A stretch of 64,000 bases of DNA from Synechococcus sp. CC9311 (GTDB lineage: Bacteria > Cyanobacteriota > Cyanobacteriia > PCC-6307 > Cyanobiaceae). The translations under genes and the position numbers were made by a program. The notes under the pieces are model-generated. The model did no database searches, was not told the DNA's origin, and saw only the letters and a program-made list of their open reading frames with translations. Positions within the stretch are counted from its first letter, which is position 1, and each line of letters opens with the position of its first letter. The stretch spans positions 868,001-932,000 of the forward strand of contig NC_008319.1 in NCBI RefSeq assembly GCF_000014585.1, written 5' to 3'. Below, one piece after another: positions 47,629 through 53,782 of the stretch.

Positions 47629-48508
47629 TTCTCGAAGCTGGCAGATGTTCTGTAACGACAAGTAGGCAATCCCTATCCAAAGGTGAATGAGGTTGGTTTG
47701 CCTGCTGTCCGGCCTTTTGCTTGTTTTCAATGCCGGGGAACCTCTGGCAATTCTCAGATTGGTCTCAAGTGAGACAGACAGCGTGTGATTTCAAGGGAAA
47801 TGATCATTGTGTCTTGCAGTTCCTTGTATGGGCTTCCTTGCTGTCGCTAGTTGCTTGGCTCTTGCCGCTGTCGTCTCGAATGCACTGATTGAAAACTGGT
47901 GATTGATGTGCAACGCATTTGTGTCACTTGAATAATCCACGAGTGTGTCTTTGTGCCACTTGAGTGGGCCTTGCACAATGATCCTTTTTTAGAAACATCC
48001 TGTCAACGAATCTGATCTGCTGTGTGAATATTGAATTTGGGCTTTCGATCTTTTTGTTAAATGGGAATTTGTAAGTTGATATAATTTTTTGTTTGCTTGA
48101 ATTCGTTGGAAACCGATACACTACGGGATGATTGCCAAGGCTTGCTTTAAATTAAATAATTTAAGGGGTGAGTGTTTTTAAATTTTTATAGAGGAGATTG
48201 TTGAGTCACGTATGATTGATTCTGCGCACTTTCTACTACTGAATTTAAAGTGTTGACGAATTAGATCAGCATGATTTGACTGAATGCATTCATTTTTTAT
48301 GAGTCTTCTTGCTTTTGGCGTGGGAATGCTTGGATGACAGATGAAGAAGGTTTGAGGCCTTTGATTGATCCTCAGTTTTAGTGAGTTTCGTTACCAAATT
48401 CCAAGTGTCCTGCGGTGAAAGCTCTCCCTCATCGCTCCACTTAAGGCTGGAAAGATGTTGAGCTGACATGTTGGTTAAATCATTGACGAGAACCTAGGAG
48501 GAGTAGCA

Positions 48509-48571
48509 GTGCCCTCGTTAGCGCTTGAGCAGCTTGTTAACGGGAGAAATTATGAAGAAAGCTCGTTCTGA
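48509..48571 (+). CDS. possible 20-aa microORF with strong ribosome binding site
   Basis: GTG at 48509 lies just after AGGAGGAG (48496-48503), a near-perfect Shine-Dalgarno at short spacing, and opens a 20-codon frame (PSLALEQLVNGRNYEESSF after the start) ending TGA. The sequence is protein-like, but the length is too short for a folded domain. It may be a leader peptide, a microprotein, or the remnant of a larger disrupted gene. Confidence 0.4.
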   Translation: MPSLALEQLVNGRNYEESSF

Positions 48572-48602
48572 TACAAAAGATCGACCAAGTGTTCAGGATT
48601 AA
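48552..48602 (+). CDS. possible 16-aa microORF overlapping the previous one
   Basis: ATG 48552 preceded by GGGAGA; 16 codons (KKARSDTKDRPSVQD after Met), in another frame than the 20-aa ORF and overlapping its last 20 bases. Basic, hydrophilic. The overlap suggests coupled translation or a frameshifted fragment of one former gene. Real function unknown. Confidence 0.3.
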   Translation: MKKARSDTKDRPSVQD

Positions 48603-48882
48603 CGCTTCTCGTTTAAGGATCTATCAACTCTGGTCATCATTGTGACAACTACACGTGTGTCACTAAAAGCCGCCGCGGCTCTACAAATGGCAGCTTTTCA
48701 CCCTGGTTGATGTCTAGAAAATATCCATTAGTCCTGGTATTGAAGCTGCGATTCAAGGTGGACAATTAGCACTGATGTCCAGCGCATCAAGGGCTTCATC
48801 GTTGAATCTTGGTAGCTCTTGTGGTCTTGATAGGCACCGTTTTCTGATCGTATGGACTGCCGCAGGAGGTGAATTTGACCTT

Positions 48883-48924
48883 TGAGGGTTATTTAACAAT
48901 TGAGGGTTATTTAACAATTGAGGG
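48883..48924. repeat. 18-bp tandem repeat, 2.3 copies
   Basis: The unit TGAGGGTTATTTAACAAT is present twice in a row (48883-48900; 48901-48918), followed by a partial TGAGGG. It lies 24 bases beyond the stop codon of the minus-strand LCP gene, in its 3' flank. It looks like a replication-slippage duplication; no known function. Confidence 0.85.
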
Positions 48925-48948
48925 AGGGCTCGCGCCTCAACCTCTCGA

Positions 48949-49926
48949 TCAGTTCTGCGCTGGCCAGATTGGCAGGCTCAGATCCGGCTTCAATTCGCGC
49001 AGTCTCTGCTGACCAGCTCGAGGTGCAAGCGGAAGCTCCGTAATGACAGGTGCCGAGGGTGCGCTGATTGCTGCAGCCATTAGGCTCAGCATCTCCGAGG
49101 CGCTGATGTCTGTTGTGACCTGGTTGGAGAACACATTCAGTAGCTCAGGTATCACTGTGACGGCATCGATTTCAGCTAACTGCTGATGCACTCCTTGGAG
49201 AAGTAGGCGTTGTCTTACTCTTCGCTGATGGTCGTCATTGGGCTTGGGCTTATGACGTGCGAGTTGTTCCGCCTGGGCGCCATTGAGCGTTTGCAGTCCT
49301 GCTTGCAGATTCACGTTGTACCCCTGGGATTTGTCCTCGTACTTGTAGGTCTGATTTAAATTGACTTCGATATCTCCAAGCCCTTCCACGAATCTGCGCA
49401 AGCTCTGTCTGGAGAGGACCAGGTAACGATCTGGCTTGTTCGTCGGCAGATCAATGAGCTCGCCTACGACGTCGGAGGTGAGTGCGATTCCGCCATGTTT
49501 CCACGTTGTGGAAAGAGCTTGCATCTCCTCGACTCCTGGCAGTTGAACTGCCAGCTCTGTCGGCAATTGCAAAATTTGAACGGGTTGTTTCTTGCCGATA
49601 TTGACCAACATCAAGCTGTCGGCGTTGCTGGGTCCTTGCGGCGCCGCTTGGTTGGATGTGGCATTAATGGTGTCAGCGTCGAGGCCGACGACCAGCACCA
49701 TCACGGCTTGTTCTGGGAGCGGAGCGAGAGCTAGAGATCCGTTGGACGACTGCACATCGGCGCCTTCTGGGTCTGGTTTGGGCCAAACCGTTGCAAGCGC
49801 TGTGCCCGCTAGAACCGTGCCCAGCAAGGCAGCACCAATCCTCAGGAGACTGCGTCCAGGGCGGTCGCCTAACCAGCCCTTGCTCTGCTTTTGCTGCGAG
49901 TCCTCACTCAACGCTGGATCCCCCAT
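48949..49926 (-). CDS. LytR-CpsA-Psr (LCP) family protein with altered active site
   Basis: A 325-aa protein with one membrane segment (about 28-47) and an extracytoplasmic LCP domain. It keeps the fold marks (VMVLVVGLD; GVEEMQALSTTWKHGG; YEDKSQGYNVNLQAGLQTLNGAQAEQLARHK; RRVRQRLLLQGVHQQL), but the usual arginines in the (G)RSDT and SIPRD motifs are missing: here NADSLMLV (101-108) and LQLPTEL (119-125). LCP proteins attach glycopolymers to peptidoglycan through a bound prenyl-pyrophosphate; loss of these Args may mean altered substrate or a non-catalytic role. Gene stands alone. Confidence 0.85.
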   Translation of the reverse strand: MGDPALSEDSQQKQSKGWLGDRPGRSLLRIGAALLGTVLAGTALATVWPKPDPEGADVQSSNGSLALAPLPEQAVMVLVVGLDADTINATSNQAAPQGPSNADSLMLVNIGKKQPVQILQLPTELAVQLPGVEEMQALSTTWKHGGIALTSDVVGELIDLPTNKPDRYLVLSRQSLRRFVEGLGDIEVNLNQTYKYEDKSQGYNVNLQAGLQTLNGAQAEQLARHKPKPNDDHQRRVRQRLLLQGVHQQLAEIDAVTVIPELLNVFSNQVTTDISASEMLSLMAAAISAPSAPVITELPLAPRAGQQRLRELKPDLSLPIWPAQN

Positions 49927-50203: not shown

Positions 50204-51415
50204 TTAAAAAAGAGCAGCATCCCCTAGCTCTTGTCCAGCCATTCCCTCTTTGTTGACCCTTGCAAAGAACTGTTCGAGGGTGTCATCGCCAAAAGAGGGG
50301 GTTGCATCGGGGTCATAGCAATCACGTGTCTCGTCCCAGACCAGCATCGATTCACTTGCGTAATAACAGCCGATACGGGCGAATTCGGCTGTGTCTTCAA
50401 CCGCTGGTACAAGCACTGCCACTTTTTCTAAAATGGCAGTTGGAGCATTCATGACTGCTATCGGTAATGACAGCATTCTGGGCGAGCGGCCAAGTGTTTT
50501 AAAAAGTATTTCCCCTTGTGTGCGTGCGCTGAGCGCGGGACCAGGTCCGCCGATGGGCAAGACTTGATTCACTTTGTCTGCTTCATTTACACAATTAGCT
50601 AAGAAGCATGCAAGATCTTTTTCGCTGATTGGCTTGCAACTTGTCAGCTCTCCATTCCCAAACATGACATAAGGTGCACCTTTTTTGCAGCTCTCAAATT
50701 GGCCGGCAATGCTTTTGAAAAAAGCTGTTGGGCGAACGATCGTATGAGTGATTTCTGTGTCTTCCCTAAGCAGAGTTTCGAAGGCAAGCTTCGCTTTCTG
50801 AAATTCTAAAATTGGCTTTTGTACGCAGATGGCTGAAAGCATCACGAAATGCGCTACGCCAGCCTTCCTCCCTTCGTTGTAGGTGTTGAGATTGGCTTGA
50901 TAATCAATCGCCCATGAATCCTTCTTGCCGCCTGTTCTCGATGCAAGGCAAGAAATCACGACATCGGTGGGTTCACTGAAGGCATGCGTTGCAAGTGAAG
51001 TGGGATTGGTGACATCGCCAAATCTCACTTCTGCGTCAGGGAAATCGGCTACGACGTCTGCTTCACTTTTGCGCCCTCCGATTCCGCTGGATTCGCGGGC
51101 AAATGCCATCACTTGATATCCACGCCTTACCAGCTCTTTCACAACAAATCGTCCGATGTACCCAGTGGCCCCGAAGACGGCCACCCTCACTTGATCCGGA
51201 GAACGTTCTCGAAAATCATGGCGCGGTAAGAGGGGGGCGAGCACGTCGTTAGCAGATTGATCTGAACCAACGCTAGGGCGTGTATCTTCCGTTTTCAAAC
51301 GAAGCGAGTTAGCAGATCTCAGTGATTGCGATGGGCTTGAGGAAAGAGCCTCGATCCTTGTTGAGACGCTCCGTAAGATCACAAAGGTCGGATCATTTGT
51401 ATTCCCTTCGACCAT
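50204..51415 (-). CDS. bciA: divinyl chlorophyllide a 8-vinyl reductase (BciA type)
   Basis: An NADPH-dependent, SDR-type reductase which reduces the 8-vinyl group of divinyl chlorophyll(ide) to the ethyl form. The Rossmann GATGYIG (82-88) in RVAVFGATGYIGRFVVKELVRRGY, SCLASRTGGKKDSWAIDYQANLNTY, VMLSAICVQKP and IVRPTAFFKSIAGQ match BciA/plant DVR. Cyanobacteria use either this or the unrelated ferredoxin-dependent BciB. The N-terminal 75 residues are low-complexity and not conserved; a TTG at 51298 is an alternative start. Only 25 bases separate its ATG from the divergent malQ start. Confidence 0.92.
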   Translation of the reverse strand: MVEGNTNDPTFVILRSVSTRIEALSSSPSQSLRSANSLRLKTEDTRPSVGSDQSANDVLAPLLPRHDFRERSPDQVRVAVFGATGYIGRFVVKELVRRGYQVMAFARESSGIGGRKSEADVVADFPDAEVRFGDVTNPTSLATHAFSEPTDVVISCLASRTGGKKDSWAIDYQANLNTYNEGRKAGVAHFVMLSAICVQKPILEFQKAKLAFETLLREDTEITHTIVRPTAFFKSIAGQFESCKKGAPYVMFGNGELTSCKPISEKDLACFLANCVNEADKVNQVLPIGGPGPALSARTQGEILFKTLGRSPRMLSLPIAVMNAPTAILEKVAVLVPAVEDTAEFARIGCYYASESMLVWDETRDCYDPDATPSFGDDTLEQFFARVNKEGMAGQELGDAALF

Positions 51416-51440: not shown

Positions 51441-52967
51441 ATGGTTAATCACTCCAGAAGCGAAAGGGATCGGCGGGTGGGTGTACTCCTTCACCCCACA
51501 GCTTTGCCGGACTCACCGGTGTGTGGAAGCTTTGGACGATCAGCCCGTGAATGGTTGAAGGCTTTGGCGAGCCATGGCGTCAGCGTTTGGCAGATTTTGC
51601 CCCTTGCTCCGCCTGATGGCACAGGGTCTCCGTACAGCTCACCCTCCAGTTTTGCCTTAAATCCTTGGCTCCTGGATGCCGAAGATTTGGCAGAAGAGAG
51701 CTTTTTAGAGTCCAGTGATCTGGGGCGTCTCCCTGGTGCTGATGCCAAGGCGGAATCGCCTGCCGTACTGGACTTTCATCTGGCCGATGCGCGTGCTGCT
51801 GCACTGGCTCGCGCGCTTGCAGCCCATTGGCCTCAGCAGTCTTCTGCGCGTCAACAAGAATTTCAACGGTGGAGGGTTGACCAAACCCATTGGCTCACGG
51901 ATCACGTCAATTTCGTGGTGCTGCGTGATCAACACAACGGTTTGCCTTGGTGGTCTTGGCCCCATCCGCTCGCAGTTCAGCAACCTGCTGCCTTGGCTCA
52001 ATGGCGTCTTCAGCATGGTGAAGCACTGCTGGAGCAGGAACTTCTTCAGTGGCATCTCGATCGACAGTGGCAATGCCTGCGCGTGCAAGCTCGAGATTTA
52101 AACATCGAGATTCTTGGTGATCTGCCCTTTTATGTGGCTCGCGATAGTGCTGATGTTTGGAGCCATCGATCCTTATTTTCTATTGCTGCTGATGGACGTT
52201 TACGGCTTCAAAGCGGAGTGCCTCCCGACTATTTTTCGGAGACCGGTCAGCTCTGGGGGACGCCGGTTTATAGCTGGGCTCGACATCGGCGAACTGGATT
52301 TCGTTGGTGGCGTAATCGCTTAAGGCGCCAGTGGAGGCTTGCTGATCGGTTGCGCTTGGATCATTTCCGCGCTTTGGCTGGTTTTTGGGCGGTCCCCGGC
52401 GATGACGACACGGCTCAAAATGGGGTTTGGCAGCGTTCACCCGGCCATGAGTTGTTGCAGCTCCTGCGTCGAGACGCGGGAGGGACGCTTCCCATCGTTG
52501 CCGAAGATCTTGGCGTGATCACGCCGGATGTGGAACGGCTCCGTGATCGCTTTCGTTTACCAGGAATGAAAGTTCTGCAGTTCGCCTTTGATGGCAACCC
52601 AAGCAACCCTTATCTGCCGCGCAATATCAAAGGACGCCAGTGGGTGGTGTACACCGGTACTCATGACAACCCCACAACGATGGGGTGGTGGCAGCGACTT
52701 GATGAATCGTCTAGGCGCCAGGTGGGTGAGCTGCTGGGGTGTCATGTTGAAGCACCCGGATGGCAATTGATGGAACTCGGGATGGAAACGTCCGCTGAAC
52801 TCGTGGTGTCTCCGTTACAGGATTTGCTGCATTTGGATGATCAAGCTCGCTTCAATACTCCAGGCACTGTTGGCGGCAATTGGTGCTGGAGGATGAGCGC
52901 TTTTGATGAGGCCCTGCAGGGTGCTCTTAAGGGTTATGGCGAGAGAGCTGCGGCCTGGGGCAGGTGA
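51441..52967 (+). CDS. malQ: 4-alpha-glucanotransferase (amylomaltase)
   Basis: A 508-aa GH77 enzyme that moves glucan segments between maltodextrins in glycogen turnover. Motifs: GVLLHPTALPDSPVCGSFG at the start, LGDLPFYVARDSADVW, nucleophile Asp in LRLDHFRALAGFW, acid Glu in IVAEDLGVITPDV and TGTHDNPTTMGWW. Length fits bacterial MalQ. Its 3' end overlaps the convergent RodZ-like gene by 34 bases. Confidence 0.95.
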   Translation: MVNHSRSERDRRVGVLLHPTALPDSPVCGSFGRSAREWLKALASHGVSVWQILPLAPPDGTGSPYSSPSSFALNPWLLDAEDLAEESFLESSDLGRLPGADAKAESPAVLDFHLADARAAALARALAAHWPQQSSARQQEFQRWRVDQTHWLTDHVNFVVLRDQHNGLPWWSWPHPLAVQQPAALAQWRLQHGEALLEQELLQWHLDRQWQCLRVQARDLNIEILGDLPFYVARDSADVWSHRSLFSIAADGRLRLQSGVPPDYFSETGQLWGTPVYSWARHRRTGFRWWRNRLRRQWRLADRLRLDHFRALAGFWAVPGDDDTAQNGVWQRSPGHELLQLLRRDAGGTLPIVAEDLGVITPDVERLRDRFRLPGMKVLQFAFDGNPSNPYLPRNIKGRQWVVYTGTHDNPTTMGWWQRLDESSRRQVGELLGCHVEAPGWQLMELGMETSAELVVSPLQDLLHLDDQARFNTPGTVGGNWCWRMSAFDEALQGALKGYGERAAAWGR

Positions 52968-53782
52968 TAAGAGCCGGGTTGGTTGGTTTTAGGAGCGAGC
53001 GCCTGTCCGTTCCAGCTCACCGAGTCGGCCTCGCCAGGAGGAGGTTGGATGCTGAGGTCAACTGGTGGTAGCAGCTGCAAGGTCACGGTTCCGGTAGCGC
53101 CTTGAAGGTTGGTTCGATCTCCTCCTTCACTGCTCAGGCTGATCTGCCGTGGTTGGGTGAGGTTGATTGCTAAAACGCCGGGTCTTGTGAGTTGATCGAG
53201 AGGTAGAGACGTTTGTTCCGGCCCGGCAGTGACCACCTCTTCCAGCGGGCGCAAGCCTTTCAAAATCTGATCAGAATCGAGTGGTGTATTGATCGGGATT
53301 GGCCTTGGCGAGAAGGCATTGATTTTGATCAGATGACGTTGTTGATGGTTCAAGGCCAGAATCGATCCGATCATCACAGCGCCGTAGACCACGCTCCCTT
53401 GCCAGGTGGTGAAGATGTCAATGCTGCCGAGAGTGAAACGCGTGCCTCGACCATTGGTCGCTAGGCGATCCGATCCTGGTCTGTTGGGCAGGGCTGTACT
53501 AAGGCTGTTTGTTGGAAGGTCGAAATAGGATTCCAACCGCTGCAACATCGCCACGAGATAGGCGGGTTCTGGGAGGCGGTCTTGCCAGCCGCGCTCAAGG
53601 GCTTCTAGGACCGGCGTTGTGATTCTCACCTCTTTCGAAAGGTCTCGCATGCTGAGACCCTTTCGTTCTCTTTGTTCTCGCAGCAGTTGTCCCGCCTCCT
53701 CCAGGGAGTTGTTGCGGCTCTCAAGTGACGTGGGAGCGTGTGGCTTGTTTTTGAGCCGTCGCCAAGGGAGGGGAAACTTCAT
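52934..53782 (-). CDS. RodZ-like membrane HTH protein
   Basis: A 282-aa protein: a basic N-terminus, an XRE-type helix-turn-helix (about 25-95, GQLLREQRERKGLSMRDLSKEV and VLEALERGWQDRLPEPAYLV), a membrane segment (VVYGAVMIGSILAL, about 132-146) and a periplasmic beta-rich tail (about 190-282, DUF4115-like). This matches RodZ, the MreB-linked cell-shape protein, though marine Synechococcus cells are coccoid to rod-like. It starts 13 bases after the RluB-type gene on the same strand and overlaps malQ at its 3' end. Confidence 0.85.
   Translation of the reverse strand: MKFPLPWRRLKNKPHAPTSLESRNNSLEEAGQLLREQRERKGLSMRDLSKEVRITTPVLEALERGWQDRLPEPAYLVAMLQRLESYFDLPTNSLSTALPNRPGSDRLATNGRGTRFTLGSIDIFTTWQGSVVYGAVMIGSILALNHQQRHLIKINAFSPRPIPINTPLDSDQILKGLRPLEEVVTAGPEQTSLPLDQLTRPGVLAINLTQPRQISLSSEGGDRTNLQGATGTVTLQLLPPVDLSIQPPPGEADSVSWNGQALAPKTNQPGSYHLPQAAALSP

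Follow-up and report, generated by a model that had tools for sequence, protein, structure and literature searches.

A nearly clade-wide variant of the LCP family in Synechococcus and related cyanobacteria lacks a catalytic arginine

We analysed a 64,000-nucleotide stretch of the Synechococcus sp. CC9311 genome (the window), in which the ORF list and profile matches place a gene for a LytR-CpsA-Psr (LCP) protein of 325 aa, P0001, at 48949..49926 on the minus strand, with an ATG start. P0001 is clearly a member of the family, matching PF03816 of Pfam at 70.8 bits (cut-off 24.6) and TIGR00350 of NCBIfam at 74.8 bits (cut-off 62.3); among LCP proteins of solved structure it also matches, for example, TagU, TagT and TagV, and a profile of its orthologues (the D clade) reaches a best E value of 1.2e-19 against solved LCP chains. 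The structure predicted from three sequences is a very low-confidence model (pLDDT 32). Kyte–Doolittle hydropathy peaks at residues 27-45 and, slightly lower, at 64-82, and marks a putative single membrane-spanning segment at about residues 27-48 (49783..49848, minus strand, as for all residue coordinates below); judging from the topology of the family, the LCP domain likely lies C-terminal to it.

The gene sits in a conserved neighbourhood of prs, a 179-aa ORF and malQ, at least one of which lies beside the D gene in 78 of the 79 loci examined; in the remaining locus, L034, only the counterpart of the window's 50204 ORF is seen. The 179-aa ORF matches no Pfam or NCBIfam model. This NAD-binding reductase-like ORF (50204-51415), which resembles divinyl chlorophyllide reductase, separates the LCP gene from malQ in close relatives of the window and in a number of other loci; in the reduced-genome loci L065-L090, tblastn did not detect it in that position. 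On the other side, about 1.3 kb without a long ORF (47629-48948) separates the LCP gene from the 179-aa ORF, and 341 columns of this stretch match L034, the sole locus compared, at 82%. The two genes abut or overlap in L035-L038 and L040 and are about 0.75 kb apart in L039 and L063. No Rfam family matches near the LCP gene at close to its gathering score, the single hit reaching 20.5 against 80 bits. Beyond malQ lies a gene for an HTH_25 protein (52934-53782) with a weak RodZ-like NCBIfam match (33 bits, cut-off 375).

In a sample of 300 genomes of the window's family, P0001 as query matched 218, some of the matches being other LCPs. Successive searches yielded 88 D orthologues (30 + 18 + 40), chosen by similarity to P0001, which we compared site by site with 81 canonical LCPs, 51 of them from the window's family (30 + 1 + 20) and 30 from other cyanobacterial families. 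A further 26 diverged copies from reduced genomes, which from their size and divergence appear to be Prochlorococcus-like, were counted apart. Left out of the counts were L063, which scores like L039 and has the same motifs; the very divergent L091 and L093, both also without the R118-site Arg; the fragments L092 and L094; and L064, from another phylum.

Residues were mapped by HMMER alignment of the D orthologue profile to Bacillus subtilis TagT, numbered as chain index plus 44, an offset chosen so that R118, R219 and R227 of the literature fall on arginines. SIPRD aligns with LPTE, placing TagT R118 at T123 of P0001 (P122-T123-E124, 49555..49563), and R-S-D aligns with N-A-D, placing R95, the G-R-S-D Arg, at N101 (N101-A-D103, 49618..49626). 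The equivalence of R118 with Cps2A R267 and A. oris R149 is taken from the accessible passages of PMC6381275 and PMC11337229 and from the alignment. In the late arginine helix (R224-x-K226 ... R235-R-V-R238-Q239, 49210..49257), RTR...R..RQ aligns with RHK...R..RQ, so that R217 corresponds to R224, R219 to K226, R227 to R235 and R230 to R238. The initial annotation had described both early arginines as replaced and the late helix as kept; the replacements are borne out by the alignment, and the helix retains R217, R227, R230 and the Gln that follows, but not the second Arg of RxR, which is Lys. P0001 also keeps both Mg-ligand Asp residues, Asp83 (TagT D82, Cps2A D234; 49678..49680) and D103 (TagT D97, Cps2A D246). 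Alignment to TagU locates the canonical K-x-N site, taken as S. aureus LcpA K135/N137, at A137-L-S139 (49510..49518), where both residues are lost. By the alignment used for the other residues, the Asn site is occupied by Thr in TagT, so that Asn is dispensable in some active LCPs. For S. aureus LcpB, six arginines (86, 109, 207, 209, 217 and 220) are described as important in the text available from PMC8716876; their spacing would fit this mapping, by which P0001 would have lost two of the six, carry Lys at one and keep three.

Site counts distinguish the D clade sharply from canonical LCPs. The R118-site Arg is present in 1/88 D rows (L129, with P-R-E) against 81/81 canonical rows, and the Asp of P-R-D is gone in 84/88 D rows (present in 4/88, versus 81/81); the canonical Lys and Asn, which would lie on the peptidoglycan side, are each found in 0/88 versus 81/81. 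D103, R224 and R235 are each present in 88/88 and 81/81. D83 is likewise invariant in the D clade (88/88) and occurs in 56/81 canonical rows, the lower figure arising because Lys replaces this first Mg-ligand Asp in 23 of the 30 canonical LCPs from other cyanobacterial families (L095-L124). At the TagT R219 site, which is Lys in P0001, the clade has Arg in 57, Leu in 18 and Lys in 13 of 88 rows. P0001 thus departs from a canonical TagT-type transferase at R118, at R219 and at the Lys and Asn, and agrees with it at the Asp pair and at R227. Gains accompany the losses: N92, A94, P96 and G98 of a clade-specific loop, N-x-A-A-P-x-G (residues 92-98, 49633..49653), and Arg173 (49408..49410) are each present in 88/88 D rows and 0/81 canonical rows. 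Together, the loss of the Lys and Asn and the gain of these invariant residues form the stronger part of the pattern, and one that the initial annotation did not include.

The two arginine losses that it had singled out are not equally informative. The G-R-S-D Arg is present in 2/88 D rows and in only 7/81 canonical rows, so its absence, shared by 74/81 canonical LCPs, says little about the D clade; by these counts R118 is the telling loss. What is reported of this residue elsewhere differs: in the accessible text of PMC6381275, A. oris R128A, taken to be the equivalent, does not impair GspA glycosylation, and S. aureus LcpB R86, which by spacing would be another equivalent, is listed in the available part of PMC8716876 among the six arginines whose loss cut activity.

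A shift of the R118 arginine to a nearby position, which would have undone the initial reading, was considered and rejected. Residues 101 to 139 of P0001 include no Arg, and the 16/88 orthologues with an Arg within eight residues of the site carry it at -6 (nine), +5 (six) or -8 (one), with no offset common to the clade. The idea that the loss is confined to the window's strain was rejected as well, since R118 is gone in 87/88 orthologues and in 26/26 reduced-genome copies; the initial annotation had asked whether all marine Synechococcus copies share it. When 38 genomes of other cyanobacterial families were searched with the D profile, no D-type copy was among the 30 best-scoring loci, all of which have P-R-D (30/30). 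Two tblastn scans found no viral relatives.

The D orthologues form one side of a branch with support 100/100, in a tree that does not resolve their place among the canonical types; an earlier tree, flagged for long branches and odd composition, also separates them. The single well-supported branch makes one origin of the loss the simplest reading, and the D paralogue seems to descend from one such event, followed by retooling. It is under purifying selection in close relatives of the window: omega averages 0.142 in D (range 0.098-0.222) and 0.138 in the intact LCP (range 0.066-0.258), over 15 pairs each from the same six genomes. A degenerating gene in the window's clade was therefore rejected, omega being like that of the intact paralogue. 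The D type is therefore a genuine departure from the rest of a known family, shared by almost the whole clade and under functional constraint among relatives of the window. Since nearly all members have lost the catalytic Arg and the wall-contact residues, yet the gene is under normal selection in its closest relatives, a job different from that of the glycopolymer-attaching enzymes is probable.

A second, intact LCP gene, whose existence the initial annotation had left as a question, lies about 32 kb away in the window's genome (G000:C1:949456-949890), and two PF03816 matches occur in 24/24 sampled genomes of the window's genus. In three genomes that are 98-99% complete (G089, G242 and G267; rows L143, L195 and L144), PF03816 and P0001 each find a single match, as in G026 (99%). 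The sole LCP of G089, G242 and G267 is apparently of the D type, so an intact enzyme is probably not needed for D to be retained, and it is unlikely that D serves solely to regulate the intact LCP. The proposal of a non-catalytic regulator or a different ligand therefore survives in part: the sequence is most naturally read as pointing to a non-catalytic role or another ligand, and a role as regulator would be speculative.

The reduced-genome copies behave differently. L065-L094 come from reduced, Prochlorococcus-like genomes that hold very divergent LCP-derived sequence at the same place; 13 of these 30 genomes have no PF03816 match, so profile surveys can miss such copies. Among the 26 counted, the R118-site Arg is present in 0/26 and the donor-side residues are mostly lost (D103 in 2/26, R224 in 3/26, R235 in 9/26), although the copies keep stop-to-stop frames of 223-348 aa and both R167 and G145 stay in 25/26. 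Donor binding is thus not what maintains these ORFs, and the selected function there may be something else, or selection may be weak. In one reduced genus the copies of three genomes are 27-34% identical to the G031 copy, too distant for dN/dS. In-frame stops occur in 4/30 genome matches in reduced genomes and in G073. A search for malQ in 21 genomes that lack a clear D gene yielded 15 loci, none of which has an ORF of at least 110 aa wholly between malQ and the next gene; one of the 15, G052, holds a short remnant. Diverged copies, in-frame stops, the G052 fragment and the 14 further genomes without an ORF there are what a decaying enzyme heading for loss would leave. For the window's clade we nonetheless regard decay as very improbable, given the omega values of its close relatives and D-specific residues that are invariant in 88/88 rows.

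Our preferred reading, to which we assign a probability of roughly 0.48, is that the D protein is a retooled pseudo-transferase, which would bind or present lipid-linked glycans and not ligate glycopolymers to peptidoglycan. With an N-terminal membrane anchor, the LCP domain would be periplasmic. On the donor side of the pocket, both Mg-ligand Asp residues are retained, as are TagT R217, R227 and the RQ motif, so the protein should still be capable of holding a glycan linked to polyprenyl (pyro)phosphate. Lost is the side that activates and positions the peptidoglycan acceptor: R118 of TagT, the Lys and Asn of canonical LCPs, and R219, which is Lys here and Leu in some relatives. The new invariant loop and Arg173 are present instead. 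The protein could then act as a carrier, decoy or sensor of lipid-linked glycan, or present the glycan to a partner.

Mutants of other LCPs guide this assignment. According to the available text of PMC11337229, TagT R118A, R219A and R227A each abolish transfer, and crystals of Wzg/Cps2A R267A still contain octaprenyl (di)phosphate; that of PMC6381275 reports that A. oris LcpA R149A loses both glycosylation and pyrophosphatase activity. The accessible part of PMC7831098 credits TagT R118 with helping to deprotonate the MurNAc C6-OH and R219 with a part in the attack step; there, S. aureus LcpA R99, K135, N137 and D224 are placed near potential peptidoglycan-saccharide sites. By analogy, P0001 is like an R267A-type mutant that arose in nature and lost more of its acceptor side, so that donor binding is plausible and transfer improbable. 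Several observations weigh against the pseudo-transferase reading. Because R118 is also close to the pyrophosphate, its loss could impair donor binding; 18/88 orthologues have Leu for R219; the canonical Asn is absent, by alignment, from TagT too; the clade-invariant R173 might substitute for R118; the reduced-genome copies mostly lack the donor-side residues; and the profile score by which the canonical rows were picked favours intact sites.

If another residue did the work of R118, for example Arg173 or one in the N-x-A-A-P-x-G loop, the D protein could still be an active phosphotransferase or pyrophosphatase, with a protein or a glycan of the outer envelope as acceptor in place of peptidoglycan. 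We consider this rather unlikely. The invariance of Asp83, Asp103 and the R227 equivalent, the restriction of Arg173 to the D clade and purifying selection all speak for such an enzyme, and A. oris LcpA is reported in the passages seen of PMC6381275 to show that a protein acceptor is possible for LCP enzymes; that enzyme, however, still requires the R118 equivalent (same passages), and variation among R, K and L at the R219 site is odd for a working transferase. Less probable still is that the LCP fold serves here for contacts with other proteins, in a scaffold or regulator to which no lipid donor binds. The reduced-genome copies, which lose most pocket residues and keep their frames, R167 and G145, speak for it, but invariant Mg positions and two invariant Arg positions in 88 orthologues are unexpected if nothing is bound, and D is kept where there is apparently no intact LCP, so that regulating that enzyme is not its sole role. 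Returning to the pseudo-transferase, we tentatively offer a fuller version as possible, though doubtful in its particulars: a Mg-dependent binder of polyprenyl-pyrophosphate-linked glycan, its acceptor side rebuilt around N-x-A-A-P-x-G and Arg173, that serves an outer-envelope pathway by handing over or sensing glycans, does not act on peptidoglycan, and persists in some lineages from which the canonical enzyme has gone.

The D clade probably does a different job from the glycopolymer-attaching enzymes, judged from its residues, and the curated model 'LCP family glycopolymer transferase' (TIGR00350) includes P0001, yet this lineage lacks residues essential in other LCPs' mutants. If the two halves of the LCP pocket, for donor and acceptor, are indeed uncoupled in this natural and well-conserved clade, the residues that bind the lipid donor could be told by experiment from those that activate the acceptor. 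Such a clade would also indicate an envelope function in small phototrophic cyanobacteria so far undescribed in the portions of the literature surveyed, among whose titles and abstract openings none reports loss of R118 in a cyanobacterial LCP.

Among known systems, clusters Cy and Ma of Hubscher et al. 2008 are Synechococcus and Prochlorococcus LCP groups, Ma also containing Paulinella (PMC2632651), and one of them may correspond to the D clade; the accessible text of that study reports LCPs in just two of twelve Prochlorococcus genomes and describes for these clusters no residue loss, retained divergent copies or equal constraint. Another cyanobacterial LCP-domain protein, ConR of Anabaena PCC 7120, has a septum phenotype in the available part of PMC7831098 and is likened here by description alone. 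The Eubacterium siraeum LCP (PDB 4OBM) is a natural LCP without the conserved arginines; compared by its description in the passages seen of PMC11337229 alone, it is said to miss all four arginines and one Asp, whereas P0001 keeps both Asp and most late-helix arginines. With the B. subtilis glycopolymer-peptidoglycan transferases TagT, TagU and TagV, P0001 has in common the LCP domain, the Mg-ligand Asp pair, and TagT R217, R227 and R230 with the next Gln; it differs from TagT and TagU in having Thr for R118, Lys for R219 and Asn for R95, in the loss of the TagU K-x-N and in the new loop. The Streptococcus pneumoniae Cps2A/Wzg R267A mutant (PDB 2XXQ, 4DE8), as described in the text available from PMC11337229, lacks the same Arg as P0001, but it is a single laboratory mutation, whereas P0001 represents a natural lineage with several further changes.
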